A stretch of DNA of 21,923 nucleotides from a virus: IMG/VR virus record IMGVR_UViG_3300028769_000381, positions 1 through 21,923 of that record. The stretch is one strand, 5' to 3'. Both the position numbers and the translations under genes were made by a program. Of the stretch, positions 2,479 through 21,323 are shown one piece after another. The notes below the pieces were generated by a model. It was not told the origin of the DNA. It did not search any database and worked only from the letters and a program-made list of their open reading frames with translations. Numbering within the stretch: the stretch's first letter is position 1; every line of letters starts with the position of its first letter.

Positions 2479-2781
2479 ATGTTACCAGCAGATGATAATC
2501 GACCACTGTTTCAATTAACGGTATCTGAATTTAAAAACCTACTATCCGCTTCAATTCCTGAAGTAAAAACCGAAATCAAGATAACTGAACCTATAAGGGT
2601 AAAGATAGACGGTATTCGAGGTCTTGCAAATTTCCTTACTGTTAGTATCCCGACGGCTCAAAAGCTGAAGAATCAAAAGAAATTCCCATTCTATGAATCC
2701 GGAAACAAGGTGTATTTCTTCTCTGATGAAGTGAATGCAGGTCTGAAAGTAGAGGCTAAGATAAAAGGTAACAGTAAATGA
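2479..2781 (+). CDS. DUF3853-like helix-turn-helix protein (100 aa)
   Basis: Small DNA-binding protein of the type found near the start of Bacteroidota prophage and mobilisable-element operons (DUF3853-like, excisionase-related winged helix). Residues 42-85 carry the recognisable part: VKIDGIRGLANFL, then VSIPTAQKLKNQKKFPFYESG and a KVYFFSDEV wing, the pattern in which a tyrosine or phenylalanine wing precedes a Glu-Val helix. The N-terminal 40 residues are a less conserved extension. It is the first gene behind the promoter at 2431 and overlaps a tiny downstream frame by ATGA. Function as an excision factor or early regulator is inferred from family and position. The family call is fairly secure; the precise role is not. 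Confidence 0.7.
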   Translation: MLPADDNRPLFQLTVSEFKNLLSASIPEVKTEIKITEPIRVKIDGIRGLANFLTVSIPTAQKLKNQKKFPFYESGNKVYFFSDEVNAGLKVEAKIKGNSK

Positions 2782-2937: not shown

Positions 2938-3465
2938 ATGGAATTTTTTGAAAAAACAATTGCAGATATTATTTGGGAATCAGATAATGCTATTTTAAAA
3001 CAAAAAGGGCTTTATATAGTCTCAGGAAAGAAATTCAGAGATTTTAAAATAGGTAATTATGGGAGTGCAGATATACTTACCGTAAAACGGACTTTTAAGG
3101 GCAATAATTATGATTCTTATCACAATGAAGATGGTCACGGATTACTATTCACAATTTATGTGGTTAGAAATGAAAAAATAGGAATTTCTGCATTTCTGAA
3201 AGCTGTAAGTTGCGCAAGGGGGATCATATCATATCTGATGAATACCCGGAAAGCTTATTTCCCATTTGACATAAAATTAGTATTAGTCGGAAAGGAACTT
3301 GATAGATCAGGGGCATTCGTTTATTTATCTGATTTATTCGGATTCAATTGCGAATATAAAACTCAATCGGTTATTGAAATTGATTTCTTTACTTACTTTT
3401 TCGATATAGATGGTATCCACTTTAGTTCAGAGTCCCAATTTAAATTAAGTCAGGAAGGGTTTTGA
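2938..3465 (+). CDS. Prophage protein with possible degenerate PD-(D/E)XK nuclease fold (175 aa)
   Basis: This resembles a protein family common in Bacteroidota prophages next to the replication initiator. The visible core is GNYGSADILTV (candidate metal-binding Asp in a beta strand), a strand ending IYVVRNEKIGISAF followed by helix LKAVSCARGIISYL, then strands DIKLVLVGKEL and DFFTYFFDIDGIHF. Alternating strands and helices with an Asp and a charged second strand suggest a restriction-endonuclease-like fold. From memory, relatives carry a Glu-x-Lys-type motif on the second strand; here that position reads V-V-R, so catalysis may be lost. The nuclease idea is inference. The stop lies one base before the initiator start, so the two are translated together. 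Confidence 0.65.
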   Translation: MEFFEKTIADIIWESDNAILKQKGLYIVSGKKFRDFKIGNYGSADILTVKRTFKGNNYDSYHNEDGHGLLFTIYVVRNEKIGISAFLKAVSCARGIISYLMNTRKAYFPFDIKLVLVGKELDRSGAFVYLSDLFGFNCEYKTQSVIEIDFFTYFFDIDGIHFSSESQFKLSQEGF

Positions 3466-3466
3466 T

Positions 3467-4201
3467 ATGGAAGGTTGGATAAGACTTCATAGACAAGTTT
3501 CAGAGCATTGGATCTGGAAAGACCCAGTCAAGTTTCAATGGTGGATTGATATGCTGTTAATGGCTAATCATGCTGATGTAAAAGTAAACATTGGTTTTGA
3601 TCTGTATGATTGCAAACGAAGTCAATCTATCTTAAGTCTTAAAAGCTGGGGAGAACGATGGGGAGTTTCAAAAGATACTGTTCGAAACTTTTTTGTACTT
3701 CTAACAAAGGATAATATGATTATTTCTGAAAATATTCAAAAAAGTACACGGATAACTATTTGTAATTATGAAACTTATCAGAGTGATTTACACGCAAAGC
3801 AAACGCAAGGCAAACGCTTAACAAACGCAGAGCAAACGCAACCTCACCCAAACAAGAATGAGAAAAATGTAAATAATGAAATAACCAATAGAAATATTTC
3901 AATTTTCGATGAATTTAGAAAAATATATCCCGGAGCAAAAAGAGGATTGGATACAGAATTTGAAAATTTCAATAGAAAAATCAAAGACTGGATAATAGTA
4001 TTACCCCTTCTCCTACCAGCAATTAAAGCTGAAATTCAACATCACAATGATTCTAAAACAAAAGGGGCATTTGTTCCAGAATATGCAAATCTATCTACGT
4101 GGATAAATCAACGGAGATGGGAAACAGAATTGCCTAATTACCAAAATGAAGAACCGATTATTCGAAGAACAAAAGCTTCAGAAATATTTGAAAATAGATA
4201 G
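3467..4201 (+). CDS. Phage replication initiator, winged-helix O-like protein (244 aa)
   Basis: Replication protein of the kind that binds the phage origin and recruits the helicase. Residues 1-105 form the conserved N-terminal winged-helix domain of Bacteroidota prophage initiators: MEGWIRLHRQVSEHWIWKD, WWIDMLLMANH, then WGVSKDTVRNFFVLL as the recognition helix and ITICNYETYQ as the end of the domain. Residues 108-138 are a Gln/Asn/Lys-rich linker, and residues 140-244 a second domain likely to contact the helicase. The linker DNA contains four exact heptamers spaced 11 bp apart, which makes it the probable origin. A DnaB helicase follows 489 bases downstream. This order (initiator with internal iterons, then helicase) parallels lambda O and P in architecture, not in sequence. 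Confidence 0.75.
   Translation: MEGWIRLHRQVSEHWIWKDPVKFQWWIDMLLMANHADVKVNIGFDLYDCKRSQSILSLKSWGERWGVSKDTVRNFFVLLTKDNMIISENIQKSTRITICNYETYQSDLHAKQTQGKRLTNAEQTQPHPNKNEKNVNNEITNRNISIFDEFRKIYPGAKRGLDTEFENFNRKIKDWIIVLPLLLPAIKAEIQHHNDSKTKGAFVPEYANLSTWINQRRWETELPNYQNEEPIIRRTKASEIFENR
3789..3843 (+). repeat. 11-bp iteron array inside the initiator gene; probable replication origin
   Basis: CAAACGC occurs at 3800, 3811, 3822 and 3833, exactly 11 bp apart, with a degenerate fifth unit (TACACGC) at 3789. Unit consensus is about CAAACGCAAAG. Because 11 is not a multiple of 3, successive units are read in different frames (Gln-Thr, Lys-Arg, Asn-Ala, Gln-Thr), so the repetition is conserved at DNA level rather than as a peptide repeat. 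A very AT-rich stretch follows (about 3855-3950), suitable for strand opening. Origin function is inferred. Confidence 0.7.
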
Positions 4202-4689: not shown

Positions 4690-6075
4690 ATGGCAGACAA
4701 GAAGTACCAGAACAAACAACAAGGCGAAGAAAAGCCGCCGATATTTTGCAACAATGACGCCGAACAGGCTGTAATTGGTGGAATTATCAATGAATCATCT
4801 GCATTTGGATTAGTTACATTTCTTCGTCCTGAGATGTTTTGCAGCGATAAGCATACTGCTATTTTCACAGCTGTACAGCAGATTTATGATAATGGAGGTA
4901 AAATTGATTATGTAACCGTTGCCGATCAGATTGAAAAAAATGGAATGCTTGAGATAGTAGGCGGAAAGTATGCTCTTGTTGAACTATCATTGAAAGTTAG
5001 TTCTACTGCTCACATTGAATCACATGCATGCATTATTCAAGATGAGTATTATCGTCGTAAAATTTACATGGTAGGAGAGATAGCAAAAGCACTCTCTTTA
5101 AATAGATCCGAAGACGTAGGAGATGTTATTGATAAAATGAGTTTAGAGGTTGAGAATATATCTCAAGATGCCTATAACCTTGACGAGAATACTTCTGTAA
5201 GCCAAACTGCTGAGGATTCATATAATCGCTACTTCGAACGCGAGAAAGCAGCTAATAATGGAAGTATTACAGGTGTAGAAACGGGTTTTTCTATTCTGAA
5301 TAAAATATCATTCGGTTATCAACCGGGTAATCTTATAATTCTTGCAGCACGTCCGGCAATGGGTAAAACAGCAGTTATGCTTCATAAAGCAAAAGCAGCT
5401 GCGATAAGTGGTAAAATACCAGTTATATTTTCTCTTGAGATGTCAAAAGAGGATTTGACAGATAGGCTTGTACTTTCAGAGTGTAATGTGAATAGCATTG
5501 CATTTAAAAATGGAACACTATCAAATCACGAAGTAGAAGAAATGTGTACCGGTGCCGATCGGGTATTGAAACTAAATATCCAAATTAATGACAATAGCAA
5601 TCAAACGGTTCGTAAGATTAAAAATATTTCTAAACAGTTGATAAAACAAGGGAAATGCAATGTTATCTACATCGATTATCTTCAATTGCTAGATATGAAA
5701 AATGATAATCGGTCCTATAATCGAGAGCAAGAAGTTAGTCAAACGTCCCGGGCGCTTAAACTAATGGCAAAAGAGTTAGGAGTTCCAGTAATTGCTTTAT
5801 CACAGCTAAGTCGTACTTGTGAAGATAGAGCTGATAAGCGTCCCAGGCTATCTGATCTTAGGGAATCAGGAGCTATTGAACAGGATGCTGATATTGTAGA
5901 ATTCTTATGGCGACCCGAGTATTACAATATTGACGAATATGAGCGTCAAAATACAAAAGGGTTGCTAATCCTAGATATTGCTAAAGGCCGAGGAATGCCG
6001 ACATGTGAGATTGAATTCAAACACAACGGTCAAATGTCAAAGTTTTACGACAAACACGAAGATAAACCTTTTTAA
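4690..6075 (+). CDS. dnaB: Replicative DNA helicase, DnaB family (461 aa)
   Basis: Hexameric 5'-3' replicative helicase that unwinds the fork, here of phage type. The DnaB N-terminal domain is seen at residues 20-125 (DAEQAVIGGIINE, GGKIDYVTVADQIEKNG). The RecA-like ATPase domain runs from about 195 to 455: ITGVETGF, Walker A ARPAMGKTA (220-228, Lys226), IFSLEMSKEDL with catalytic Glu250, Walker B VIYIDYLQLL (325-334, Asp329), ALSQLSR, the LSDLRESGAIEQDAD block, and the Lys432/Arg434 finger in AKGRGMP. Length equals chromosomal DnaB, and every motif is intact. It is linked to an initiator gene, so the element directs its own replication. It may load the host primase; no primase gene is present in the window. 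Confidence 0.95.
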   Translation: MADKKYQNKQQGEEKPPIFCNNDAEQAVIGGIINESSAFGLVTFLRPEMFCSDKHTAIFTAVQQIYDNGGKIDYVTVADQIEKNGMLEIVGGKYALVELSLKVSSTAHIESHACIIQDEYYRRKIYMVGEIAKALSLNRSEDVGDVIDKMSLEVENISQDAYNLDENTSVSQTAEDSYNRYFEREKAANNGSITGVETGFSILNKISFGYQPGNLIILAARPAMGKTAVMLHKAKAAAISGKIPVIFSLEMSKEDLTDRLVLSECNVNSIAFKNGTLSNHEVEEMCTGADRVLKLNIQINDNSNQTVRKIKNISKQLIKQGKCNVIYIDYLQLLDMKNDNRSYNREQEVSQTSRALKLMAKELGVPVIALSQLSRTCEDRADKRPRLSDLRESGAIEQDADIVEFLWRPEYYNIDEYERQNTKGLLILDIAKGRGMPTCEIEFKHNGQMSKFYDKHEDKPF

Positions 6076-6086
6076 AAGAAATCATT

Positions 6087-6728
6087 ATGAATATTGAAAT
6101 TGAAAAATATATCAAGAAGCGCTATGATCGTTGGTTGGACTACTCTTCTTTTCATACAGAACAAGCAGGTTTGCAGGACCAGGCTGTCGATGTTCTAAAT
6201 GAGGTTCTATTATCGCTTTTAAAAAAGGATGAGGATTCTCTTCTTAAACTGCTTCACTCAAGGAAAGAACAATATTGCGAACTTGATTTTTTTGTCCTCA
6301 GATTAATAAAAATGAATGCAACATCAAATACAGCACCCTATCGATTTAAAAATCGCAACAGGCTGCCTATAGATATCAACGTTGATTATTCGCGACTTGA
6401 AATTGTAGATCTAAAAGAACCTGAGATAGATAAATCTCATGAGATTCTTGAGAAGCTTAAAACTTTATGTAAAATAGTTGAAAGGTTTGACATGAATAAA
6501 ATTGAGAAGGAAGTATTCAACCATGTATTTGTTATGCAAGAACCAATATCTACTTATAATAAATGTGACAATATCAAAAAACAGCTATACAAATCTTACT
6601 TAACAATAGAAACAGCGTTAACTGCCGTACTCTTTCAAGAGGGCATAATCCAAGTGTCACCAAAAAGAACTATAACAAATAGAGTAAAAAGTATTGTCAA
6701 TCAATATAATTTAACCAAAGTGTATTGA
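6087..6728 (+). CDS. Phage protein of unknown function, possibly sigma-like (213 aa)
   Basis: It starts 11 bases after the helicase stop, so it is in the same transcript. The protein is helical, soluble and acidic-basic mixed. The N-terminal part (KKRYDRWLDYSSFH, then LQDQAVDVLNEVLLSLLKKDE) has the spacing of a sigma-70 region 2 start, where a long helix is followed by a DxxxE helix; the segment TSNTAPYRFKNRNR is a conserved-looking basic turn; and the C-terminus has helices that could form a region-4-like domain. I regard this as suggestive only. A middle/late transcription regulator between replication and packaging genes would make sense of its position. It could equally be an unrelated DNA-binding protein. 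Confidence 0.55.
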   Translation: MNIEIEKYIKKRYDRWLDYSSFHTEQAGLQDQAVDVLNEVLLSLLKKDEDSLLKLLHSRKEQYCELDFFVLRLIKMNATSNTAPYRFKNRNRLPIDINVDYSRLEIVDLKEPEIDKSHEILEKLKTLCKIVERFDMNKIEKEVFNHVFVMQEPISTYNKCDNIKKQLYKSYLTIETALTAVLFQEGIIQVSPKRTITNRVKSIVNQYNLTKVY

Positions 6729-6820: not shown

Positions 6821-7351
6821 ATGAAAGAACTAAAGCCATTGATAGTCTATGAAGATCAAATAAACATCAAGAAGGAGTTGAAATATTTAGATACTATTGT
6901 ATTGCCGTGTTGCCCAAAAATTCAATGTGAATTTGAGAAATTAGGTATAGGAGAAATTTCAAATAATTACCTAGCAGATATACTCTACAATTCTTGTTCT
7001 GGAATAGAAGCTGAGGTGAATAAAGATAGCATTCCGATTAAAAATCTAAGGGCTGCAGTCGGCTTATTACACGACAAATGCAATATTACCGGTGTGCAGC
7101 ACCTTTTGCGTTACCTTTCTATTTCGCAAAATGGAAACATTGTATTCTCTGAGATATCAAAAGAAGAATTGAAAGATTGCTATAGGCAATATGTACGTAC
7201 AGAAACCGGAATAACCCGACGACAACTGCACGAAAAAGCGGTCCGGGCATTGAATGATTTCAAAAAAGCAATGGATAATGCTGATGTGATTGAGTTATTT
7301 GATATCGATGAGCAGGACAACATAATGCCAATCCCGGTTAGTTATGAATAG
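6821..7351 (+). CDS. Hypothetical protein upstream of terminase small subunit (176 aa)
   Basis: Not recognised. Two parts are visible: an N-terminal domain with paired cysteines (VLPCCPKIQCEFEKLG; three Cys within nine residues, possibly metal binding) and a helical C-terminal part (GITRRQLHEKAVRALNDFKKAMDNADV) ending in an acidic tail. No signal peptide or transmembrane segment. It lies 92 bases after the preceding gene and 86 bases before terS, in the place where Bacteroidota prophages often carry small unknown genes before the packaging module. No function is proposed. Confidence 0.6.
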   Translation: MKELKPLIVYEDQINIKKELKYLDTIVLPCCPKIQCEFEKLGIGEISNNYLADILYNSCSGIEAEVNKDSIPIKNLRAAVGLLHDKCNITGVQHLLRYLSISQNGNIVFSEISKEELKDCYRQYVRTETGITRRQLHEKAVRALNDFKKAMDNADVIELFDIDEQDNIMPIPVSYE

Positions 7352-7437: not shown

Positions 7438-8004
7438 ATGAAAAAGTCAGAAGTAGTTCAAGAAGAAAAAAAACTAACCTTTAAGCAAGAGCTATTCTGC
7501 AGTGAATATTGCATTGATTATAACGCAACTAGGGCAGCAATAAAGGCGGGATACAGCGAAAGAACTGCATGCTCAATTGGAAGCGAAAACCTAAGAAAAC
7601 CTGAGATTAAGGAACGAATTAAAATTTTACAATCAAATTTATCTGAAACATCCGGTATTTCTGCACTCCGAGTATTGAACGAGCATAAAAAAATAGCCTT
7701 TTCTAGTGCATCAGACCTCCGTGAGGGTTGGATAAGCTTAAAACGGTTCGATAGCCTATCCGAAGAACAAAAGTCCTGCATTCAAGAGATAAGCACGAAA
7801 AGTGATAAGCGGTACGAAAAAGGAGTAGACGGAGAACCCGGGACGTGGGTTGATGAAGAGTGGGTGAAAATTAAGCTCTATGATAAACAGAAGAGCCTTG
7901 ACAGTATTAGTAAGATGCTCGGTTATGATGCGCCTCAAAAAATTGAGATCGGATTATCTGAAGGTCTAGAACTTGAAATTGGGTTTAAACGAAAGACTGA
8001 TTGA
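7438..8004 (+). CDS. terS: Terminase small subunit (188 aa)
   Basis: DNA-packaging recognition protein that binds the pac or cos site and directs the large terminase to it. Residues 12-62 show the Terminase_2 pattern: KLTFKQELFCSEYCIDYN, ATRAAIKAGYS, then SENLRKPEIKERIKIL, which is the helix-turn-helix DNA-binding domain. The C-terminal half contains the usual WVKIKLYDKQKSLDSISKMLGY segment. Length is normal and the gene looks intact. What is odd is the neighbourhood: the large subunit gene that should follow is absent and the next gene is the tape measure. It could serve as a packaging specificity factor acting with a helper phage's large terminase, or simply be a survivor of a deletion. Confidence 0.85.
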   Translation: MKKSEVVQEEKKLTFKQELFCSEYCIDYNATRAAIKAGYSERTACSIGSENLRKPEIKERIKILQSNLSETSGISALRVLNEHKKIAFSSASDLREGWISLKRFDSLSEEQKSCIQEISTKSDKRYEKGVDGEPGTWVDEEWVKIKLYDKQKSLDSISKMLGYDAPQKIEIGLSEGLELEIGFKRKTD

Positions 8005-8025
8005 ATACGACATTTGTCATTCAAT
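8000..8025. repeat. Inverted repeat at the terS/tape measure junction
   Basis: ATTGAAT (8000-8006) pairs with ATTCAAT (8019-8025), with an inner GAC/GTC pair (8009-8011 and 8016-8018) on a 4-nt loop. It overlaps the terS stop and is followed by A-runs rather than T-runs on this strand, so it is a poor rightward terminator. It sits where head genes would be expected and may mark the deletion junction; this is inference. Confidence 0.4.
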
Positions 8026-8064
8026 AAAAAATAATAGAACATCTTACAAACATAAAAAATAGTC

Positions 8065-11000
8065 ATGAGCGAATTAATTGATAGAATTATAGATGAAGGA
8101 GCAATCAAGAAACAGCTTGATGACTTAGATAAACAGCTGAAGAGCTCTTCTGAAAATCTAGCTGCATGTGCTGTTAATGCCAAAGCCTTCAGTGATGCCT
8201 TTGGTAGTTCAAAAGGAATAAATGACATTACTACTATGCTAAAGCAGTATAACGAAACTATTCTTTCTACTCAGAAAGCACAAACGGAAGCTGAAAAAAC
8301 TGAAAAGCTTCGTGCCGATACTGCTCTTAAACTTGCAAAAGCTCAGGAAGTAAATGCAAAAGCTGAATTGGAACGTGCATCGGCAATTCTTGCTACTCAG
8401 AAAGCGCAAGAATCAGCTGCAAAAGCTGATCAGGTAAAGATTGACCTACTTACTAAGTCTATTGCCAATACAGAGAAAGCAGCTAAGGCCGAAATGGAGT
8501 TGATGAATGCCAAACAGACGATGATCAATATCCTAGCAAAAGAGGGTATTTCTGTTGATAAAATGAATATGAGTAAATCTCAGGCTAATGCTATCAATAG
8601 ATTGGTACTCGCTGCAAATAATGCTGAAATTGGGAGCCGTGAGCAGCTGTCGGCACAATTTGATTTAAATTATAAGGCTTATAGTAAACTTTCGGCAGCA
8701 CAGCAAAATACTGCTGGTGGTAAAGCAATGCAAGCAAGCATACTTGAGCAATCAAATGCGCTAAAAAGTACTGAAGGGTCACTCGGTAATTTTACCCGTA
8801 ATGTAGGGAATTATTCTTCTGCCACTAAAATGATGGGTATAAATATTGGCCAAATTTTGAAAGAGTTACCGAATGCCGGGATATCTGGTAGAACATTCAT
8901 TATGTCCCTATCAAATAACCTTATTCCTCTTGCTGAATCTATAAAGTCTGTTTCTGCTGAGCAAAAATTACTTACTGCTGCATTCAAAGCCGGAGAAACT
9001 GACGTAAAACCTGCTTCGATGATGAAGCTACTCGGCCAGTCAATATTTGGACTTACAGGGATAATGTCTGTAGGCGTTGCTTTATTCGTAGCATTTGGTC
9101 CCGAAATATTAAAGTGGGCTTCAAACCTATTTGCAGGTGATAAAGTAGTTCGTTCACTTACGTCAAGATTATATGATTTAAACAGCGCTCAACAGATGAT
9201 TCATAAAACTATGAAAGACGGTGGTGGAGTGTATGCCGATGCCGTTAAGTCAGTTGAAGAAATGAATGTACAACTATCAGCTGCTAAGGGTAATCATGAA
9301 GAAGAAATACTCGCATTGGATAAATATAACAAAGGACTTGGTGAAAACTTTGGTAAGGCTACCAGTGTAGGCCAGGCACTTGATATAATTGCAAGTAAAA
9401 AGGATGCGTATATTGATGCTATGATGAAAATGGCCTATGCAAATGCTTTCCTTGGTCAAAGTCAAAAGGATATGGTTGCTTATGTAGATGCTCAGACTAA
9501 ATCACAGCAGGAATTACTAAGAAATGCCGGTAAAGATGCAAAAGGACTTTGGGAAGAATACGAGGCCATTGGTAAAGCCATAGAAGAAGCAAAGGTCAAT
9601 TCAAAAAAAGGAATGACAGATAACGTGAATGTTGGTGGCATATTTGGTACTGCTTATTCAATGCAAGGAGCAATAGAGAAAAGAAAGAATCTTGCAAATG
9701 AAATGAAAACGATTGAATTGAATGAACGTAAACGCCAACTCGATGATATTGCAAAGCACCAAGGTACCATGAGTGCAAAATACAAAGAATACTATAATCT
9801 TTATCTGAAAGAATTAGAGGAAAATGGTATTAAAAGCGGCAAACTTGATGCAAGCCAACACAAAATATATAAAGCTGCTAAGATTAAACAATTTGAGTGG
9901 GATATTGCTATGGAAGAATCTGAGGCCAAAACTATTCAGAATATGCAGGAAAATGAAATTGCTGCATTTGATGTAACTATTGATAAGAAAAAGAAAAAAG
10001 TTACAGACTATATAGCCGATCTTAAAACACAACAATCTGATATTAACGCAGTGGTTCACCAAACTAAAGATCCCAAAGTAAAAGCACAGGCTCAGGAGGA
10101 TTTCAATAAGATTAGTATTGCTATCACCGAAGCAGAGCAAAAAAAAACAGACCTATTTGTTCAGTATGAATTGGAACGCCAAAAAGGCCTTTTCGATATA
10201 AAATCAAAATGGTTTGTAAAATATCTGAATGAAGAAAAATCATTCCAAGAATCTCAAGTAAAATCGACTCAGGATTATGGTGATAAATCTCTTGCATATC
10301 AACAACATATTACTAGTACTCTATTTGAAATACAAGCTCATGCAGATGAAAAAATAGCACGATCAAGATACTTAAATGGAGAAATAACTATAACTGCATT
10401 AAACACAACGTTGGCTAATATAAAAGCTCAACGTGCAGCCCTTGAGGATTCTCAAAAAGAATCTAAAAACTCTGATTTCAAGAGTAGAGTAAGTAATATT
10501 GAAACTAAAAAAACTAACGATGCTCTTGAAGAAAAAAATCGTGAGTATATTGAAGGAAAATTATCTGCATCTCAGTATGAAAAGGACATAGCTGAAATTA
10601 AAGAACGTGGAGCAGATGCTCAACTTTCAAATCAGATTTGGCTTAGTGAGGAAGAGATTGAAAATTTAAAGAAACAAGGTAAAGATACTACAAAACTTGA
10701 ACAAGAATTATCAGATAAAAAACAGCAACGTGATGCTAAAATAGCAGATAAGAAACTGCAATCTGAGAAAGCTCTTCAAAAGAAATTGATTGAACTTATC
10801 AAAACCTCTGCTTCTGCAATAAAAGAAATCGGAGATAATCAGTTCCAGGAACAACTGGATAAAATTGATGCGCTAAAAACGGCTAATACCGAAGCGGCAG
10901 CCGCCGAGACCGATGCCATAGATAAAAAATTTAAGTCCGGTGTATTATCTCAGGAAGAAGCCGATGCCAGAAAAGCCTCTATAGATGATCAAGCAAAAGC

Positions 11001-11619
11001 AAGAGAGGATCAGCTAAACGAAGAAGCGAAGCAAACTAAAATCAAACAGGCAAAGTTTGATAAAGAGATGTCTGTATTTAATATCCTATTGAATACAGCT
11101 ACAGCAGTAGTAGAAGCACTTCCAAATGTACCATTATCAATAATAATTGGGGCTATGGGAGCGCTGGAATTAGGTGCTGTACTTTCAAAACCGATTCCGG
11201 CGTATGCTCTTGGGACCAATGATCATATTGGTGGTAATGCTATTTTAGGAGATGGTGGAAAGCACGAGATGGCCGTTACTCCATCGGGTAGTATTATCAA
11301 AACTCCAAAGGTTCCAACGGTAATGAGTCTTCCTATTCATACAAAGGTATTCCCGGACTACGATAAAGCAATTCAAGAAATGGCTTTTGATGCTTCAATT
11401 CGATCTATGTATGCAACTACACCAAGTATTGAGATTAATGCCTACAATGACGCGCTTATGCGTAAACAAATGGGTTCGTTAGTCAAACAGACTGAAAGAC
11501 AAATTAATCAACTTGGTAAACTGAATAATTTAGATAGGAATATGGAAAATATGGTAAGTACGAACCTTAAAATAGTAGATGCAATAAAAAGTAACAAAAA
11601 AAGTGGATGGAATGACTAA
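8065..11619 (+). CDS. Phage tail tape measure protein (1184 aa)
   Basis: Tape measure that sets tail length and helps DNA pass the host envelope. Residues 1-180 are an Ala/Lys/Gln-rich coiled coil; residues about 245-300 contain the family signature MMGINIGQILKELPNAGISGRTFIMSLSNN written here in two parts (MMGINIGQILKELPNAG and RTFIMSLSNNLIPLAES). A hydrophobic helix lies near 326-346 (FGLTGIMSVGVALFVAF), a long charged coiled coil at about 560-1000, and a second hydrophobic block near 1005-1040. The C-terminus has the Bacteroidota tail signature YALGTNDHIGGNAILGDGG followed by a proline-rich segment. Both ends are intact. At roughly 1.5 angstrom per residue the length implies a tail of about 0.18 micrometre, a siphovirus-type tail. 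The gene directly follows terS with no head genes between. Confidence 0.88.
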   Translation: MSELIDRIIDEGAIKKQLDDLDKQLKSSSENLAACAVNAKAFSDAFGSSKGINDITTMLKQYNETILSTQKAQTEAEKTEKLRADTALKLAKAQEVNAKAELERASAILATQKAQESAAKADQVKIDLLTKSIANTEKAAKAEMELMNAKQTMINILAKEGISVDKMNMSKSQANAINRLVLAANNAEIGSREQLSAQFDLNYKAYSKLSAAQQNTAGGKAMQASILEQSNALKSTEGSLGNFTRNVGNYSSATKMMGINIGQILKELPNAGISGRTFIMSLSNNLIPLAESIKSVSAEQKLLTAAFKAGETDVKPASMMKLLGQSIFGLTGIMSVGVALFVAFGPEILKWASNLFAGDKVVRSLTSRLYDLNSAQQMIHKTMKDGGGVYADAVKSVEEMNVQLSAAKGNHEEEILALDKYNKGLGENFGKATSVGQALDIIASKKDAYIDAMMKMAYANAFLGQSQKDMVAYVDAQTKSQQELLRNAGKDAKGLWEEYEAIGKAIEEAKVNSKKGMTDNVNVGGIFGTAYSMQGAIEKRKNLANEMKTIELNERKRQLDDIAKHQGTMSAKYKEYYNLYLKELEENGIKSGKLDASQHKIYKAAKIKQFEWDIAMEESEAKTIQNMQENEIAAFDVTIDKKKKKVTDYIADLKTQQSDINAVVHQTKDPKVKAQAQEDFNKISIAITEAEQKKTDLFVQYELERQKGLFDIKSKWFVKYLNEEKSFQESQVKSTQDYGDKSLAYQQHITSTLFEIQAHADEKIARSRYLNGEITITALNTTLANIKAQRAALEDSQKESKNSDFKSRVSNIETKKTNDALEEKNREYIEGKLSASQYEKDIAEIKERGADAQLSNQIWLSEEEIENLKKQGKDTTKLEQELSDKKQQRDAKIADKKLQSEKALQKKLIELIKTSASAIKEIGDNQFQEQLDKIDALKTANTEAAAAETDAIDKKFKSGVLSQEEADARKASIDDQAKAREDQLNEEAKQTKIKQAKFDKEMSVFNILLNTATAVVEALPNVPLSIIIGAMGALELGAVLSKPIPAYALGTNDHIGGNAILGDGGKHEMAVTPSGSIIKTPKVPTVMSLPIHTKVFPDYDKAIQEMAFDASIRSMYATTPSIEINAYNDALMRKQMGSLVKQTERQINQLGKLNNLDRNMENMVSTNLKIVDAIKSNKKSGWND

Positions 11620-11690
11620 ACCGGGTCATTCCCAATTAACTGCTCATTAAAAATACAACTATCAATATGAATCCTATTATATATTAACTC

Positions 11691-13820
11691 ATGAGAAACC
11701 ATGTGACCCCACCAAAAATAAAATACGTTTTACAGTATACTGATAATTCAGTATCACAATCGGTTGATGTTACTGCTGATTTTGCAAATTGGAAATCCTT
11801 TTCGACGGACATTGTTCGCGATGGAATTAGCGGTGCATTTATCCAACTACAAGACGGTGGAATATCATTTACCGGTGAATCATATGAAATTGTACAGGAG
11901 ATTAACGATACACAAGGTTTGAAAGCTCATGCGAAATTAGTTGTAAGTGTTCGTAAAGACACATTCCCCGATTTATGGAGCTACGAACAAAAAGTAGTTC
12001 TTGACCTAAATTTTGCTACCTATACTCGCACAAATACGACTATAGAACTAGAAGCAAACGAGAACGGATTGAAAGAAATGATCAAATCTAATGCTTCTCA
12101 AAAGTACGATATTCCTGTCGAAACGCTTACCCCTGATACGCTTGATTATGATGGATTAGAGATAAAAGAAACGCTTACATGGACTACAGGTGAGATAATT
12201 GGATATCCCACTTTGAATAGCGCTCTTCAAAATTATAGTGGGCCTCTTTACCTATCTATTTATGCCTCTGATCAGGATGTAAATGCAAATTATAATAACC
12301 CTTTTACTCAAGGTAGCCAGGTATTAGCAAAACCGTTCCCTTTAACTGGTGGATTATACGATATACGCGAGTGGAATGGATCTGATTGGTATAGCTATAA
12401 TAATAACGAGTATAAACATTATCTAATTCAATCAAAGTTTGCAAAACAATTTACGTTTTCTTTGAAAGCAACACTCAATGTAAATTTTGGATATCCACTT
12501 AATATAGCCTACTTATACCTAGTTTGCGCAAATACTCAAGAGAGAACGTCACTTCGTACTTTTGGTGGAGGAAATAACGTTGATTATCATATAAATATTG
12601 ATGTAACTAAAACAATTCTAAATGATGTCGATGGCCTTAATTACTATCTGGAACTAGATTATCAGCATCATGTTGATGCTGGAATTCTAACAGCGCATCT
12701 TACACTGAATAAATTTGAATTTGAGAGCGGTGGATCCATCCAAATAGAATGGCTTGCAATGCCAAAAGCAAATATTTCTATTCCGATTGTCAGTGAAAGG
12801 AAACTAGTCCAGGCATTAGTTGATAATCTTACTGAAACAAGCGGAGTTTACACTGCGCTTGTTGACGAACATGATGAAAATATTAGGATAGCTGCCGGCG
12901 AAAGTATCCGTAATTTCGAAAAACAGTATTTGCATACTTCATTCAGTGATTTTTCTACTTATATGAAATCATGTTGGGGTTATGAATATGACATTGACGG
13001 AAACACTATTCGTTTTTCACTCCGGGATAAGTTCTTTTCATCCGAACCCGCATTAGTCATACCCGAGATAAATAACTTCAAATTTTCGAAAAATCAAGAT
13101 TATATGTACACCGGTGTAAAAATTGGTATTGCACTTATTCAATACCAATCAATAAACGGAGTTGATGAGTTTAGATTTTTAGAGGAATGGAGTACAGGAG
13201 TAAAAAATGTGATAAACGTCCTTGATCTGACTTCTCCATATCGGACTGATGCCTATGGGTTCCAATTGCTATCTGATAAACAGTATAAAAAGAACAGTAC
13301 GGATGATCAATCAGACAATGGAATATTCGTTGTACATGTTATCCCGGATAACGGAAAATTCATCCTTGATAGAAATGCTGTAATCACCGGTGTCGCGAGT
13401 ACCGATACAATGTTCAATGCTATTTTTTCACCTCGTAAATGCTTGGAACGAAACGCAAGTTTACTGGGTATGTCTACATCGGTTTTGAAATTCACTTCCG
13501 GACTTGGGAATGCTGATATTTCAATTAATGGAGTTTCGGAGAAAGCAGATATTATTGTTGGTTCATCGCTATTTACACCGGACATACTAGAATGTGATAT
13601 TGGTGAAATAGTTGATTTACCAACGGAGAAAAATGGGTTAGTAAGCTGCTCTCTCAATGGAAAAGTTTACAATGGATTTATAAAGAAATTATCCCATTAT
13701 TGGGGAGCAGATCAAAAGACTTCAGCAACATTTTTCATAAAAAGTATTACGCGTGATAGTTCAAGAGATATTGATTACGATCCGCGCGATTATGATTCAC
13801 GTGATTTTAAAACAAGATGA
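11691..13820 (+). CDS. Tail-tip / tail-associated structural protein (709 aa)
   Basis: Large beta-rich protein placed where siphoviruses encode distal tail and tail-tip proteins, directly after the tape measure. The N-terminal half contains short strand repeats such as LQDGGISFTGESYEIVQEI. The central part, from about residue 370 (ERKLVQALVDNLTETSG, then SFSDFSTYMKSCWGYEYDIDG), resembles baseplate-hub or Tal-like folds that position the tail tip on the receptor. The C-terminal tail DYDPRDYDSRDFKTR is an Asp/Arg repeat. No signal peptide. A relic of a related gene's 5' part lies about 2.8 kb downstream. Structural role is well supported by order and by resemblance to Bacteroidota prophage tails; whether it binds receptor itself is inferred. 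Confidence 0.75.
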   Translation: MRNHVTPPKIKYVLQYTDNSVSQSVDVTADFANWKSFSTDIVRDGISGAFIQLQDGGISFTGESYEIVQEINDTQGLKAHAKLVVSVRKDTFPDLWSYEQKVVLDLNFATYTRTNTTIELEANENGLKEMIKSNASQKYDIPVETLTPDTLDYDGLEIKETLTWTTGEIIGYPTLNSALQNYSGPLYLSIYASDQDVNANYNNPFTQGSQVLAKPFPLTGGLYDIREWNGSDWYSYNNNEYKHYLIQSKFAKQFTFSLKATLNVNFGYPLNIAYLYLVCANTQERTSLRTFGGGNNVDYHINIDVTKTILNDVDGLNYYLELDYQHHVDAGILTAHLTLNKFEFESGGSIQIEWLAMPKANISIPIVSERKLVQALVDNLTETSGVYTALVDEHDENIRIAAGESIRNFEKQYLHTSFSDFSTYMKSCWGYEYDIDGNTIRFSLRDKFFSSEPALVIPEINNFKFSKNQDYMYTGVKIGIALIQYQSINGVDEFRFLEEWSTGVKNVINVLDLTSPYRTDAYGFQLLSDKQYKKNSTDDQSDNGIFVVHVIPDNGKFILDRNAVITGVASTDTMFNAIFSPRKCLERNASLLGMSTSVLKFTSGLGNADISINGVSEKADIIVGSSLFTPDILECDIGEIVDLPTEKNGLVSCSLNGKVYNGFIKKLSHYWGADQKTSATFFIKSITRDSSRDIDYDPRDYDSRDFKTR

Positions 13821-13856
13821 GTATTTCAAAGATAATCACTTATTTAATCTTAATTA

Positions 13857-13890
13857 AAAATGCACACTATACCGGTGTGCATTTTGTTGT
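13857..13890 (+). terminator. Terminator after the tail genes
   Basis: Perfect 11-bp stem AAAATGCACAC (13857-13867) with GTGTGCATTTT (13875-13885), 7-nt loop, followed by GTTGTTT. It ends the tail transcript 37 bases after the stop, so no further structural genes belong to that unit. Confidence 0.8.
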
Positions 13891-13952
13891 TTATATAGCG
13901 TCACTAAATTATTTTTACTATTTTTACAATCTAATCAATTAAGCTAATTATT

Positions 13953-14585
13953 ATGAAGAAAATTATTTTAGCGGTAATGCTTTTTATTTCGGTAGCTGGA
14001 TTTAGTCAAAACAAAGAAGAATTTAAGTTCAAGACTATTTCAAATAGTGATATCAAGATAAATCGAGACAAATCAATAAAAATAACCGATAATAAAAATA
14101 TTTATTCAAGCAATTCAAATAGTAGAGTTGTTGTTGAAAATGATAGTTTTCCAACATACGATGATGTAGTTATATGTAAAAACATAGAATTAAAAGCAAT
14201 AAATAAGCATATAAATGAATGGATAGCGGAGACATATGAAGACCCAAAATCAGTCATTAAATACATTAGTCCGGATGGGAGTAAAATTATAATCAGAGCA
14301 CAGAAAAGTTTCATTTACTATTATAGAGAAAATAATGATGCGATATGTAAATATACAATCACTTTCAATTTAAAAAACGGTAAATATAAATGGACTGTTG
14401 ATATAAATGACGTATTGGATGATTCTGGAAATTCTATGTATCCCTTATTTAATGGGTCATATAATGCGACCGATGTGCTGCGTGATATCCAGTCATCTGT
14501 ATCTAACAAACTAGAATTGATAATCTTTGAATTAAGGAGTCAATTATCAACCATAATGGTAAATGAAAAAAAAAATAATTGGTAA
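13953..14585 (+). CDS. Secreted protein with DUF4468-like domain (210 aa)
   Basis: Exported protein, probably periplasmic. The N-terminus is a clear type I signal peptide (MKKIILAVMLFISVAGFSQ), with the Bacteroidota-typical ...FSQ cleavage region around residue 19. No lipobox Cys is seen. Residues about 85-170 match the DUF4468 type of TBP-like fold: INKHINEWIAETYED, SVIKYISPDGSKIIIRAQ, then KYTITFNLKNGKYKWTVDIND. The gene is flanked by terminators on both sides (13857 and 14643), so it is a separate transcription unit, the usual sign of lysogenic-conversion cargo. It is AT-rich compared with the tail genes. Function of the domain is unknown; altering the host envelope, and so phage entry, is a guess. 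Confidence 0.7.
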   Translation: MKKIILAVMLFISVAGFSQNKEEFKFKTISNSDIKINRDKSIKITDNKNIYSSNSNSRVVVENDSFPTYDDVVICKNIELKAINKHINEWIAETYEDPKSVIKYISPDGSKIIIRAQKSFIYYYRENNDAICKYTITFNLKNGKYKWTVDINDVLDDSGNSMYPLFNGSYNATDVLRDIQSSVSNKLELIIFELRSQLSTIMVNEKKNNW

Positions 14586-14701: not shown

Positions 14702-14775
14702 ATTTCAGATGGTAGAATCTCATTTACCGGTGAATCATTCAAAATAGTTCAAGAGATTTACGAAACACAACAAAA
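14702..14775 (+). pseudogene. Relic of a second tail-tip gene (5' fragment)
   Basis: The frame starting at 14702 reads SDGRISFTGESFKIVQEI followed by YETQ, which aligns without gaps to QDGGISFTGESYEIVQEI and NDTQ in the 709-residue tail protein (DNA about 11851-11915). By hand count about 52 of 63 bases match, including a 19-base identical core. A stop codon lies directly upstream (TAG, 14699-14701) and similarity ends after about 25 codons, so this is a fragment left by duplication and deletion, or by exchange between related phages. Confidence 0.75.
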
Positions 14776-14939: not shown

Positions 14940-15239
14940 ATGGAAGATCGACAATTAGAACAAATTATTACCGCTGCAATGCAGATCGGCGTGTACAATA
15001 CGCTAAATGAACTAGGGTTACTTAATGACGTACTCACCCAGCAACAGGCATACAAAAAACACACTCAACGTATTATTGATGACCTTCGGCACAAAGGATG
15101 GATTACCGGATACCCTACAGGAAACCCTAAGCGTGGAAAAGTTTACTTCAAGCGCTCCGAAGTAGAGACAGCATTAAGAATGCTTGACATACAAAACCTT
15201 GTTACAGAGAACAAAATATTCAAGTCTATAATACAATGA
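14940..15239 (+). CDS. Small DNA-binding protein, winged-helix type (99 aa)
   Basis: Probably a winged-helix DNA-binding protein related to excisionase or MerR-like domains. Residues 28-55 give two helices (DVLTQQQAYKKHTQRIIDDLRHKGWI), and residues 62-85 form a wing and helix (NPKRGKVYFKRSEVETALRML), similar in shape to the KVYFFSDEV end of the protein at 2479. No signal or membrane segment. It is a stand-alone unit: candidate promoter upstream, terminator at 15286 downstream. It could regulate the early region or act in excision; neither is shown by the sequence. The exact family name is not certain. Confidence 0.6.
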   Translation: MEDRQLEQIITAAMQIGVYNTLNELGLLNDVLTQQQAYKKHTQRIIDDLRHKGWITGYPTGNPKRGKVYFKRSEVETALRMLDIQNLVTENKIFKSIIQ

Positions 15240-15352: not shown

Positions 15353-15796
15353 TCATTTATTCAATTCATCATATATCTTTTCGTTCAACTTTTGTATCGA
15401 AAAGAAATTTATCACAAAATAGATAATACTGTATATCATCAAAATACAAAATACTATAGTCCAATTTATATTTGCATTCAACCCACAAAATGACAAATCT
15501 GTGAACTTATAGTCTGACAACAATTTAGTAAGTAGATACACGATTGTTGTCATTGAAAAATGGATTATAAATGAACTTCTAACAACCTTTAGGTTATCTC
15601 GAATATCTCTAATAACAGATTTGTTTTTCAATCCATTAAGATTAAATGTCACTAATAGACCTAATCCAACGGAAAACATTATTCCAGAGACATTGAATAT
15701 CGTTGAAATAAAAAACTCTCCAGGGACAGTTTTGATAAAGACAGACAATATAGTCGATAGTACTATAACTATTATTGTTCTTACAATAGTTTTCAT
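15353..15796 (-). CDS. Four-helix membrane protein, second gene of a two-gene cassette (147 aa)
   Basis: Integral inner-membrane protein of unknown family. Four hydrophobic segments are visible at about residues 4-26, 30-54, 72-92 and 109-135, separated by short basic loops (LNGLKNKSVIRDIRDNLK is the longest, and probably cytoplasmic). No cleavable signal or enzymatic motif. The start codon overlaps the stop of the 321-residue gene by four bases (TCAT on the plus strand, 15793-15796), so the two proteins are translationally coupled and probably act together. A small four-helix membrane protein paired with a soluble partner is the layout of several anti-phage systems such as Kiwa, but I cannot show homology. 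It could be a membrane effector, an exclusion protein, or an immunity partner. Confidence 0.7.
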   Translation of the reverse strand: MKTIVRTIIVIVLSTILSVFIKTVPGEFFISTIFNVSGIMFSVGLGLLVTFNLNGLKNKSVIRDIRDNLKVVRSSFIIHFSMTTIVYLLTKLLSDYKFTDLSFCGLNANINWTIVFCILMIYSIIYFVINFFSIQKLNEKIYDELNK

Positions 15797-17208: not shown

Positions 17209-17508
17209 TTACTCATGTTCAATAACCGGTCCGGTTGAGTAATCGGTTAGGAATGTTTGTAATGCTTGATCACTGTCTATTCTATAGGTTCTACCCCGGA
17301 ACAACAATAATCCATACAATTCAGATTCAACATCGAATAAATTTGATACCGGCACCTCTAAAGCTTGAGCTATTTTCTCTAATGTGTCAAGCGTTGGATT
17401 ACCATTTATTGCCCGGCTCAAACTTTCTCTTGCCATTGGCATCTTTTCGGCCAGATCACCAATAGTAATACCTTTTGATTTACAAATTTCTTTTACGCGT
17501 AGATTCAT
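17209..17508 (-). CDS. XRE-family transcriptional repressor, CI-like (99 aa)
   Basis: Helix-turn-helix regulator in the position of a prophage master repressor. Residues 5-58 are a standard Cro/C1 domain: VKEICKSKGITIGDLAEKM, recognition helix region ARESLSRAINGNPTLDTLEKIAQAL, ending EVPVSNLFDV. The C-terminal 40 residues (YGLLLFRGRTYRIDSDQALQTFL) form a short beta-rich tail too small for a LexA-type self-cleaving domain, so release from repression would need an antirepressor or other signal. It is divergent from the early operon; the 169 bases between the two start codons hold both promoters and repeated TTTGTGAT sites, which are its likely operators. Autoregulation is likely, since sites flank its own -7 box. 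Confidence 0.88.
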   Translation of the reverse strand: MNLRVKEICKSKGITIGDLAEKMPMARESLSRAINGNPTLDTLEKIAQALEVPVSNLFDVESELYGLLLFRGRTYRIDSDQALQTFLTDYSTGPVIEHE

Positions 17509-18305: not shown

Positions 18306-18665
18306 ATGGAGACAACTAAAAAAACAGAAGTGCAAGTTTTTAGTGAAGAGTTTGCTAAAGAAATCGATTTTCTGAAATCATACGACCAATCTGAGGGTTA
18401 TGATATTACCAACTTGTTTAGAATTATGAAAAAACAAATAGGTGATACATTAGAAAGGTTAGAATTACTTAAAGTTGATATGAACGATATTGCATATGAA
18501 AATTTATGGCAAATGGGTACAATATTGAAAATAGTTGGAGATAAGGTGACTGATGAGCTTTTTTTAAATATTGATAATCTTGTCTATGCCCTTGAAAATA
18601 ATGAATATTTAAATCCGAATAGCAATAACAATTTAACCTCAAAAATGGAAGGAGCTAATAAATGA
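18306..18665 (+). CDS. Early-operon hypothetical protein A, paralogue of the gene at 18946 (119 aa)
   Basis: Helical acidic protein without known motifs. It is clearly related to the protein at 18946-19245: shared pattern F-x-E-x(3-4)-E-I-x-x-L-K-S-x-x-Q-x-x-G-x-D-I-x-N-x-F-x-I, then M-x-T-I-L-(R/K)-x-(I/V)-x-x-K-V and L-F-x-x-I-D-N-(L/V)-V. So the pair arose by duplication. The segment DITNLFRIMKKQIGDTLERLELL is predicted helix. A 14-residue Asn-rich tail (NPNSNNNLTSKM) is extra to its paralogue. The stop overlaps the next start (ATGA, 18662-18665), so translation is coupled. No function is proposed. Confidence 0.7.
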   Translation: METTKKTEVQVFSEEFAKEIDFLKSYDQSEGYDITNLFRIMKKQIGDTLERLELLKVDMNDIAYENLWQMGTILKIVGDKVTDELFLNIDNLVYALENNEYLNPNSNNNLTSKMEGANK

Positions 18666-18949
18666 CAACAATTACATCCGGCAATAGATCAGTACTTATT
18701 AAAGCAATTGATACCCGTATAGATTCCGGTATTCGTAATCTGGAATATAATATTTTAGTAGGAGAACAGGTTATCTCAATAAACCATGAAGAGCTAGTCA
18801 AAATATCTGAAATTTCAATATCGTATATAAAACCGACAGAGTTAGAAACGTCAATGGAAGTCGCAAAAGATTTGATCATACACTTAACCTCACTTGTCGA
18901 AAGAGAAACAAAAATGCAGTTATTGATGTCAAAACATGAAAACAAATGA
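18662..18949 (+). CDS. Early-operon hypothetical protein between the paralogues (95 aa)
   Basis: Not recognised. It overlaps both neighbours by ATGA at each end (18662-18665 and 18946-18949), so the three genes form one translationally coupled block. The protein begins MTTITSGNRSVLIKAIDTRIDSG and carries a central strand-helix segment (YNILVGEQVISINHEELVKISEIS) and a C-terminal amphipathic helix (SMEVAKDLIIHLTSLVERE). It is unlike the flanking paralogues. A complex made of A, this protein and the A paralogue is a reasonable guess from the coupling, but nothing in the sequence proves it. Confidence 0.65.
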   Translation: MTTITSGNRSVLIKAIDTRIDSGIRNLEYNILVGEQVISINHEELVKISEISISYIKPTELETSMEVAKDLIIHLTSLVERETKMQLLMSKHENK

Positions 18950-19245
18950 GTAATATGAAACAAATAGACTTCAATGAACTAACTGAAGAGATTACTATTC
19001 TTAAAAGCTGCACACAAACACATGGAACTGATATTTTAAACTTTTTTGAAATAATAGATCAGCAATTGGCCTTAGCAATAGAAATAGCCGAAGAACTCCC
19101 AGAAAACAATAAATCGGCCATGTTGAAGAATTTTTATATTATGGACACTATCCTAAGACAGATTCGTTCTAAAGTAGATACTAAATTGTTTTGGGCCATT
19201 GATAATGTTGTATTTGAAGCACACAAAGAGAAATCAAAAGAATAA
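18946..19245 (+). CDS. Early-operon hypothetical protein, paralogue of the gene at 18306 (99 aa)
   Basis: Helical acidic protein, paralogue of the 119-residue protein at 18306. Matching blocks are FNELTEEITILKS with FSEEFAKEIDFLKS, GTDILNFFEIIDQQ with GYDITNLFRIMKKQ, and KLFWAIDNVVFEA with ELFLNIDNLVYAL. It lacks the Asn-rich tail of its relative. The start overlaps the preceding stop (ATGA); a second in-frame ATG three codons later (18955) is an alternative. It is the last intact gene of the early block before the Rha/BRO relics. Function unknown. Confidence 0.7.
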   Translation: MSNMKQIDFNELTEEITILKSCTQTHGTDILNFFEIIDQQLALAIEIAEELPENNKSAMLKNFYIMDTILRQIRSKVDTKLFWAIDNVVFEAHKEKSKE

Positions 19246-20015: not shown

Positions 20016-21323
20016 ATGCCCTACGCTGTTCTCCACTTAGAAAAAGCATCCGGACCCGATACTGGAATGTCAATGCATATTGAAAGAACTATATCACCGG
20101 CGAATGCCGACCCATTACGCACTCATCTAAACAAAGAACTTATAATGTTCCCTGAAGGGGTCGCGAGTCGCTCACAAGCAATTCAACATAGAATAGATAA
20201 TGCGGGTATTTCCAGAAAGATATCAAAGACTCAGGTTCGAGCGATTAGAATTTTACTTACCGGTAGTCCTGATAAAATGAAAGAAATAGAATCGGGCGGC
20301 CGGCTTGAAGATTGGTGCAATGACAATATTGAGTGGCTAAATAGAACCTATGGTAAGGATAATGTTGTATCCGCGGTACTTCACTTAGATGAATCAACAC
20401 CACATTTACATGCCACTATAGTACCCATTACTACCGGAGAAAGAAGAAAGTCCAAGCAAGAACAATCTACCCCAAAGAAAAAATACAACAAGAAAAGTAT
20501 TGGTACCGTTCGTCTTTGCGCAGATGATATAATGACTAGGATTAAGCTCAAAGAATACCAAAATAGCTATTCTGAATCCATGCATAATTATGGGCTAGAA
20601 CGAGGAATTGACGGCTCAGAAGCTAAGCATATATCAACATCGCAGTATTACCGTGAATTGCTGTCACAAACAGACGGCCTGCAAAACAATATTGGTAGTT
20701 TGCTACACCAACAAGATCAAGTGACTGGTGAACTAATGAAAATTAAACGGGAGATCAAAACTGACAAGATGAAGAGTGTTGCGGTTAATGTCGCTACATC
20801 GGCAATGGAGGGTATCGGTTCAGTATTTGATAGTTCTAAACTAAAAAAACAACAGCGTGAGATTGATACATTGAAAGCCGAAAATACAAATCTAAAGAAT
20901 GAGATCCGGCAACTAAATAAGCGCATCGATATTCTGAAGAATGAATATAAGATCACTACAGATAAGCTACGCGAAGAACTCCGAAAGATATATGAGATGG
21001 TCCCAAGTATAAGAGATTTATTCATTATTGAGAAAATCTGTAGATTTGCTGAGTTCTCTGAGGAATTGATAAAAAAAATACTCACTTTTAAACCGGTTGA
21101 GTTTAAAGGTAAAATCTATTCTACTCAACACTTCTACAGATTTGAAACAGATCACTCAATCGCTAAAATCGAAAATGACAAATCAGATCCAAGTCGACTT
21201 CGACTTTTTATAGACAACCTAGAAATACATGATTGGTTTAAAAAGAAAGATAGAGAGATTGATAAAAAGCTAGGGATTAATTATAAGCGTAAAAATGGTG
21301 GAGAACTAGGAACTAAGATTTAA
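20016..21323 (+). CDS. MobV-family relaxase / Mob_Pre protein (435 aa)
   Basis: DNA-nicking mobilisation protein that cuts oriT and leads the strand into a recipient through a helper conjugation system. The N-terminal 210 residues match the Bacteroidota MobV pattern: MPYAVLHLEKASG, SMHIERTI, ADPLRTHLNKEL, QAIQHRIDNAGISRKI, then the metal-binding HxDExxPHxH motif (VLHLDESTPHLHATIVPI, His123, His130, His132), and GTVRLCADDIM. Residues about 270-325 are a coiled coil. The C-terminal 110 residues are a unique, probably DNA- or partner-binding tail. All motif residues are present. No type IV secretion genes are in the window, so a helper is needed. Its presence beside terminase and tail genes is unusual; it may be part of the same element or of a neighbour. 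Confidence 0.92.
   Translation: MPYAVLHLEKASGPDTGMSMHIERTISPANADPLRTHLNKELIMFPEGVASRSQAIQHRIDNAGISRKISKTQVRAIRILLTGSPDKMKEIESGGRLEDWCNDNIEWLNRTYGKDNVVSAVLHLDESTPHLHATIVPITTGERRKSKQEQSTPKKKYNKKSIGTVRLCADDIMTRIKLKEYQNSYSESMHNYGLERGIDGSEAKHISTSQYYRELLSQTDGLQNNIGSLLHQQDQVTGELMKIKREIKTDKMKSVAVNVATSAMEGIGSVFDSSKLKKQQREIDTLKAENTNLKNEIRQLNKRIDILKNEYKITTDKLREELRKIYEMVPSIRDLFIIEKICRFAEFSEELIKKILTFKPVEFKGKIYSTQHFYRFETDHSIAKIENDKSDPSRLRLFIDNLEIHDWFKKKDREIDKKLGINYKRKNGGELGTKI

Follow-up and report, generated by a model that had tools for sequence, protein, structure and literature searches.

A headless Bacteroidota element with a terminase small subunit and its own tape measure protein, probably a tail-respecifying phage satellite

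The stretch of DNA analysed here (the window) is the whole of a linear IMG/VR record of 21,923 bp, G000, in which a terminase small subunit gene (terS) leads directly into genes for a tape measure protein (TMP) and a tail-tip protein. Headless elements that combine terS with a TMP gene occur on at least three chassis in Bacteroidota. With moderate confidence, we interpret the module as part of an integrative, self-replicating Bacteroidota phage satellite without head, motor ATPase or tail tube, which would depend on a helper and form chimeric tails. The element probably belongs to a recurrent family that places its own ruler in the tails of particles taken from a helper, as judged from the comparisons below. 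A broader proposal is put forward only tentatively: several independent lineages may constitute a recurrent headless class in Bacteroidota, with a plug-in tail cassette and a helper-matched TerS, in which swaps would retarget the helper and set tail length and ejection.

The features of the window are listed in Table 1. ORF calls place 60 bases (8005-8064) between terS and the TMP gene, the products of the three genes being 188, 1184 and 709 aa in length. The initial annotation had described terS, a 60-base gap, a complete TMP gene, a tail-tip gene and a terminator, all of which are borne out by the ORF calls and the sequence, and the surviving genes are full length as it stated, with the 1184- and 709-codon frames intact. 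Regarding the TMP, matches to PHROG tape-measure families (phrog_20660/1506) are weak and are accompanied by phrog_14476 and phrog_26705; tblastn linked it to proteins annotated as tape measures in Bacteroides phage vB_BfrS_23 and Olleya phage Harreka_1, and synteny with the phage G005 also supports the identity. The name “tail tip” for the downstream product is a prediction based on synteny. Its AlphaFold model had a mean pLDDT of 31.5 and was discarded, and a PDB search with its sequence gave no match; Rfam and tRNA scans of the window likewise gave none. The 64-bp remnant of a second tip gene lies downstream of the terminator, indicating turnover of the tip in the past. The window is bounded by contig breaks at both ends, with int truncated at base 1 and no att sites visible. 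A second record, G001, overlaps it from position 5546 and extends 3.6 kb past its right end, giving a combined length of 25.5 kb.

Table 1. Annotated features of the window, with the evidence for each
Feature	Position	Strand	Evidence
Tyrosine integrase, 5'-truncated at contig start	1..1233	+	PF00589, PF13102; 37% to integrase of att-bounded Lentimicrobiaceae element
Excisionase-like HTH protein (DUF3853)	2479..2781	+	PF12964/HTH_17; 58% to L121_2, 34% to L049_3
Chassis gene g4	2938..3465	+	63% to L181_3/L232_5; no match in other phage loci
DnaD-like helicase loader / initiator	3467..4201	+	phrog_2514 E=2.8e-30
DnaB-like replicative helicase	4690..6075	+	PF03796 E=1.7e-82
Chassis gene g8, also in some phages	6087..6728	+	58% L027, 53% L181, 43-50% phages
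Chassis gene g9, satellite-specific here	6821..7351	+	52% L027, 42% L181; absent from ~110 other phage loci
Terminase small subunit, mosaic	7438..8004	+	PF03592 E=6e-35; phrog_51 E=3e-35; domain mosaic
Tape measure protein, 1184 aa	8065..11619	+	PHROG, tblastn; 58% (aa 1-264) and 50% (C-terminal third) to G005/G006 TMP
Predicted tail-tip/hub-like structural protein, 709 aa	11691..13820	+	phrog_22157 E=6e-58, phrog_15220, both “virion structural”; 50% to G005 protein likewise downstream of TMP
Intrinsic terminator 3' of tail module	13856..13896	+	inverted repeat ATGCACAC...GTGTGCAT, then TTTTG (T run)
DUF4468 secreted protein (cargo)	13953..14585	+	PF14730 E=2.8e-7
64-bp remnant of second, diverged tail-tip gene	14707..14770	+	83% nt to 11852-11915
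Chassis gene g14 (DNA-binding-like)	14940..15239	+	67% L029_5, 60% L181_15; absent from other phage loci
HTH repressor	17209..17508	-	PF01381; 53% to L232_16
Chassis genes g18-g20, g18 and g20 paralogues	18306..19245	+	47% L029_4, 41% L181_16; absent from other phage loci
MobV/Mob_Pre relaxase	20016..21323	+	PF01076 E=3.5e-30; 42% to Bacteroides plasmid MobV

Profiles for the large terminase (terL), portal and major capsid protein (MCP) were searched against the DNA and gave no match in the window or in G001, while the phage G005, serving as positive control, matched all three. No major tail gene was recognised in the 25.5 kb of window and extension, and no capsid-size gene in the window element. 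The absence of large terminase, portal, capsid and major tail genes claimed in the initial annotation therefore holds across this length, and the terL, portal and MCP profiles found none of these genes in the 3.6-kb extension, although it had allowed that the missing genes might lie elsewhere in the element. The same three profiles found nothing in G000, G001, G415, G416 and G419, nor in an att-bounded element from Lentimicrobiaceae. HMMs built for the analysis recognised 99 loci with terL, 62 with a portal gene and 88 with an MCP gene, but none of these genes in the headless elements, with the exception of terL in Dysgonomonas alginatilytica. The window element thus has no recognised gene set for a complete virion, as read from a copy with contig-break ends; in this copy missing genes might still lie beyond those ends, a possibility that is excluded for the Lentimicrobiaceae element.

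The junction between terS and the TMP gene was found in five IMG/VR records (G000 and four others), with identical sequence at the junction; the records differ in extent and their contig ends are mostly different. Each copy of this exact junction stems from a metagenome. The initial annotation had proposed two checks, a search for the junction in further genomes and one for related full prophages that carry the missing genes, and the second is answered by the phage G005 (IMG/VR 3300028774_000035), a 26-kb record continued in G006. It has counterparts of terS (75% identity), of the TMP gene (58% within aa 1-264) and of the tip gene (50%) in that order, and its terS is separated from its TMP gene by ~11.0 kb that contain the genes for terL, portal, protease and major capsid as well as tail and other genes; g9, g14 and g18/g20 are absent from it. 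Between G000 and G001, 23 SNPs (20 synonymous, 3 non-synonymous) were observed, all within 193 bp of the TMP gene (8625-8817). Such confinement to one tract possibly reflects recombination or an assembly patch, and an estimate of purifying selection from these SNPs was therefore dropped. The donor of the tract would be an unsampled TMP of ~88% identity; it is neither G005 nor L234.

The surroundings of the module are shared with other headless elements. Genes g4, g9, g14 and g18/g20 are common to the window and to L181/L232 and/or L027-L029 only; they are absent from the ~110 other phage loci examined, and g9 gave 0 matches in 50,697 phage records. In the window, the order is int-...-g4-dnaD-...-dnaB-g8-g9-terS-TMP-tip-...-g14-...-g18/g20. 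In L026-L029, where L027 together with L026/L028 and L029 represents overlapping pieces of 93-100% nucleotide identity, it is g8-g9-tail completion-TMP(1294 aa)-o168-terS-second terS-199-284-g20-g14, and in L232 (16.5 kb) it is int-...-g4-dnaD-...-g8-g9-tail completion-TMP(1234)-o168-terS2-...-g14-g20. The slot between g9 and g14 is thus filled by terS-TMP-tip in the window, with a TMP of the G005 type, and by tail completion-TMP(phrog_9959)-o168-(terS)-terS2 in L027-L029 and L232, with an unrelated TMP of the phrog_9959 type. Since the chassis genes are shared and the contents of the slot differ, a constant chassis carries differing structural cassettes.

A complete integrated headless element is located in a Lentimicrobiaceae MAG, L049, on a contig of 545,705 bp. 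It measures 18,015 bp from repeat to repeat and is flanked by a 15-bp att repeat, the right copy of which is the 3' end of a tRNA-Arg gene. It carries int (37% to that of the window), xis, VRR-NUC, terS2, terS, tail completion, a TMP gene (1216 aa), a RadC-like gene and others, and profile searches found no terL, portal or capsid gene in it. In a second chassis (L230/L231/L154), one or two terS2 genes lie on the strand opposite the tail completion-TMP operon, and the 7-kb fragment L031 is a further headless tail completion-TMP element. Loci other than the window, L026-L029 among them, carry a terS of the window clade and have no terL. In the cultured isolate Dysgonomonas alginatilytica DSM 100214 (L048), the order is terS-terL-small genes-TMP-tip, and portal and capsid genes are lacking in the vicinity; because terL is retained, it is either a cousin of the headless elements or a decayed prophage. 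A private gene of chassis B had no match in 395 genomes, a search rated uninformative.

In each cassette, the TMP is accompanied by the gene for a protein of one tail end: the tip in the window, and an HK97-gp10-like tail-completion protein in L027, L031, L049, L230, L231 and L232. The model of the latter protein is confident (pLDDT 88) and resembles HK97 gp10 proteins and the tail components of viruses. One PDB hit, to a SaPI1 neck structure that includes tail completion and tape measure proteins (9mu2), was weak and non-significant and counts as no more than a lead. Both genes share a strand in 67 loci; the spacing from tail completion to the TMP gene downstream is 3-20 bp in the 6 headless elements among them, compared with at least 1031 bp in the 61 others. 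Adjacency of the two genes as a mark of satellites only was nevertheless rejected, since a full Dysgonomonas mossii phage has the same arrangement. Two candidates from the genome scan, G071 and G337, proved to be ordinary phages, in which the tail-completion gene is followed by a MuF-like gene. Satellite TMPs range from 893 to 1294 aa and as a group are the shorter ones, with a median of 1216 aa compared with 1464 aa in 36 non-identical phages (Mann-Whitney p=1.3e-4, with members not fully independent), although the TMP of the window is not shorter than the 1169 aa of G005. Between satellite alleles, the dN/dS of the TMP gene was 0.15 (L026-L027, 1104 codons) and 0.26 (L028-L027, 336 codons). 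The intact frames and purifying selection expected of a maintained element are accordingly present in related headless elements, which together with the recurring junction supports the satellite reading of the initial annotation.

The TerS of the window is a mosaic. Compared with phages L019-L021, amino acid identity is 68-69% for residues 1-72 and 96-97% for the remainder of the protein (97% in the C half for L019/L020); compared with the satellite L026, it is 79% in the N half, where phages reach 67-69%, and 68% in the C half. The site patterns of the two halves differ (heterogeneity p=2e-10), and the C-terminal half traces to a different phage lineage than the TMP of the window. Satellite contigs occur in the same metagenomes that yielded L020 and L021 (3300030339, 3300031521). 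The simplest reading of these sequences is recombination that kept a different DNA-recognition half and gained a TerL-contacting half matched to the helper. The variant of the HTH half is partly shared by the phage L030, so that “satellite-specific” would be too strong a term for it.

A process consistent with this gene content can be proposed. The element would excise and replicate using its own Int, DnaD-like and DnaB proteins. The HTH half of TerS, which is unlike that of the helper, may bind the packaging site of the element itself, while the C-terminal half, nearly identical to that of the helper, may dock the helper TerL, so that helper heads would be filled with satellite DNA. The TerS of PICIs redirects the helper TerL, and this mode of action, together with the mosaic, suggests the packaging step. 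Subsequently, the satellite TMP and tip would replace those of the helper, resulting in chimeric tails in which the satellite sets both the length and the core for DNA ejection, a step with experimental precedent in PLEs. As a TMP must fit its partner at one tail end, satellites would carry it with one cognate partner, which is distal (tip) in the window and proximal (tail completion of the HK97-gp10 type) in the sisters. An exchangeable cassette in a constant chassis would also allow a lineage to switch helper.

Other explanations have to be weighed against this satellite. A defective prophage would result if one deletion of ~11 kb in a G005-like prophage had joined terS to TMP, the rest being leftover. 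The homologous terS, TMP and tip of G005, their common order and the length between them fit such an event, the missing genes are those of a normal phage as a single deletion predicts, and the tip remnant at 14707 is a sign of past rearrangement. However, G005 lacks g4, g9, g14 and g18-20, which other headless elements do carry, the C-terminal half of TerS and the TMP derive from different phage lineages, and the 149-aa gene between TMP and tip in G005 is also gone along with all post-tip genes, so that several events would be needed. The long frames are intact, and genes of one phage in order with decaying frames were not what was found. In sister elements the TMP gene precedes terS or is encoded on the other strand, and since order and strand vary in this way, and the TMP family too, the single deletion of 8-12 kb considered in the initial annotation fails to account for the set; we regard a defective prophage as quite unlikely. 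A chimera, in which the metagenome assembly fused a phage tail with another element, is the least probable explanation and a very remote one: the exact junction is metagenomic throughout and the patch of SNPs in G001 possibly arose in assembly, but five records contain the junction and their contigs mostly end at different points, and the same gene logic is present in the 545-kb chromosomal contig with att repeats.

The remaining two explanations accept a maintained element and differ in its function. TMP and tip could poison tail assembly of the helper, as defence or copy control, rather than serve as parts of a satellite particle. The TMP is a known target of tail interference (PLE Rta, PMC12987554), and a TMP and tip without a tube cannot build a tail alone. 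Against this, TMPs of full length under purifying selection with an end partner have the look of working parts, and TerS would be pointless unless the element were also packaged; interference is considered unlikely. It is improbable, in our assessment, that the window represents a mobilizable element with an acquired phage fragment, transferred by conjugation with the phage genes as passengers. A relaxase is present, 42% identical to those of Bacteroides plasmids, and the element could move mainly by conjugation. Nevertheless, L230, L232 and the 18-kb Lentimicrobiaceae element keep terS and TMP although none of their listed ORFs matches the relaxase of the window, and the cassette is exchanged as a unit at the same chassis position. 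The relaxase had been taken in the initial annotation as a sign of a maintained element; its MobV type (PF01076) is real, and its relevance to the tail module is conjectural. The location of MobV and terS in one element makes dual transfer, conjugative and phage-mediated, possible.

With respect to known satellites, the window broadly resembles PICIs and SaPIs in size class and in having an integrase, an excisionase-like gene, its own replication genes and TerS without TerL. Compared with the PICI gene set (~10-20 kb, integrated at a specific att site), int, a xis-like gene, DnaD/DnaB and terS are present and the length with G001 exceeds 25 kb; in the 18,015-bp Lentimicrobiaceae element the set is mostly present, its replication genes being tentative. 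Tail structural genes are expected to be absent from a PICI, whereas the window has a full-length TMP and a tip; classical PICIs are not known to encode a TMP or a tail tip. Like cf-PICIs, the satellite would supply part of its own virion, but cf-PICIs have their own capsid and packaging genes and borrow tails, while here the head module, including MCP and portal, is absent and tail parts are present. The Streptomyces phage satellites Mulch and Flayer also encode virion parts and need a helper, with the opposite division of labour: encapsidation machinery is present and key replication genes are lacking (PMC10690885).

Well-characterised satellites supposedly borrow helper tails unchanged, and the PLE satellites of Vibrio cholerae, reported in 2026, are the first exception. 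PLEs build chimeric tails with their own TMP, which is required for efficient transduction and is paired with a chaperone and a hub protein, the tail being 10 nm shorter (PMC12987554). Putative tmp genes were also reported in cf-PICIs and Vibrio PLE-like elements (PMC12987554; cf-PICIs in Extended Data Fig. 10), so tail respecification is already a known kind. Shared with PLEs are a satellite TMP with an end partner (the baseplate hub in PLEs), incomplete tail genes and, as proposed here, use of the helper tail tube. PLEs differ in that their TMP is shorter than that of the helper, the helper is the contractile-tailed ICP1 and a tail chaperone is also encoded; the class of the window carries TerS, is located in Bacteroidota and swaps its tail cassette within a chassis, and terminase is unmentioned in the PLE paper (PMC12987554). 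A literature search of incomplete coverage found no Bacteroidota satellites with tape measure genes. The headless terS-TMP class with swappable tail cassettes is new for Bacteroidota; further additions are the TerS mosaic and a TMP that teams with a partner from one or the other tail end. With at least three chassis in a second phylum, tail respecification looks like a general satellite strategy. Furthermore, the cassettes paired with tip or tail completion are natural variants for asking which end of the TMP fixes helper compatibility. If the reading is true, satellites would be natural tail engineers, in which swapping a cassette and a TerS half retargets the element to a new helper.

Several minor observations were made in the related elements. 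In L155, of the same chassis as L230/L231/L154, the start of the tail-completion gene is fused in frame to the end of the TMP gene (6118-6672), an internal cassette deletion. In L154 (5164-6276), a gene for a MuF/SPP1 gp7-like minor head protein lies directly 3' of the TMP gene. L049 (9413-10588), L028 (1537-2720) and L153 (406-1439) have pairs of neighbouring terS genes, which belong either to the same family or to different ones and perhaps serve one helper each. To the right of the window, the G001 extension carries HTH, ImmA-like, PIN-like, UmuC and SRAP-like genes; in L040 (2381-3629), HTH, ImmA/IrrE-like and PIN-like genes are present, and PADLOC capP and PDC-M69B match the ImmA-like protein. 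Within the window, a reverse operon of two genes (15353-16758, minus strand) encodes proteins of 321 and 147 aa, the latter membrane-like; it had no match in Pfam, PHROG or PADLOC, and by its layout it looks like a defence or exclusion pair.
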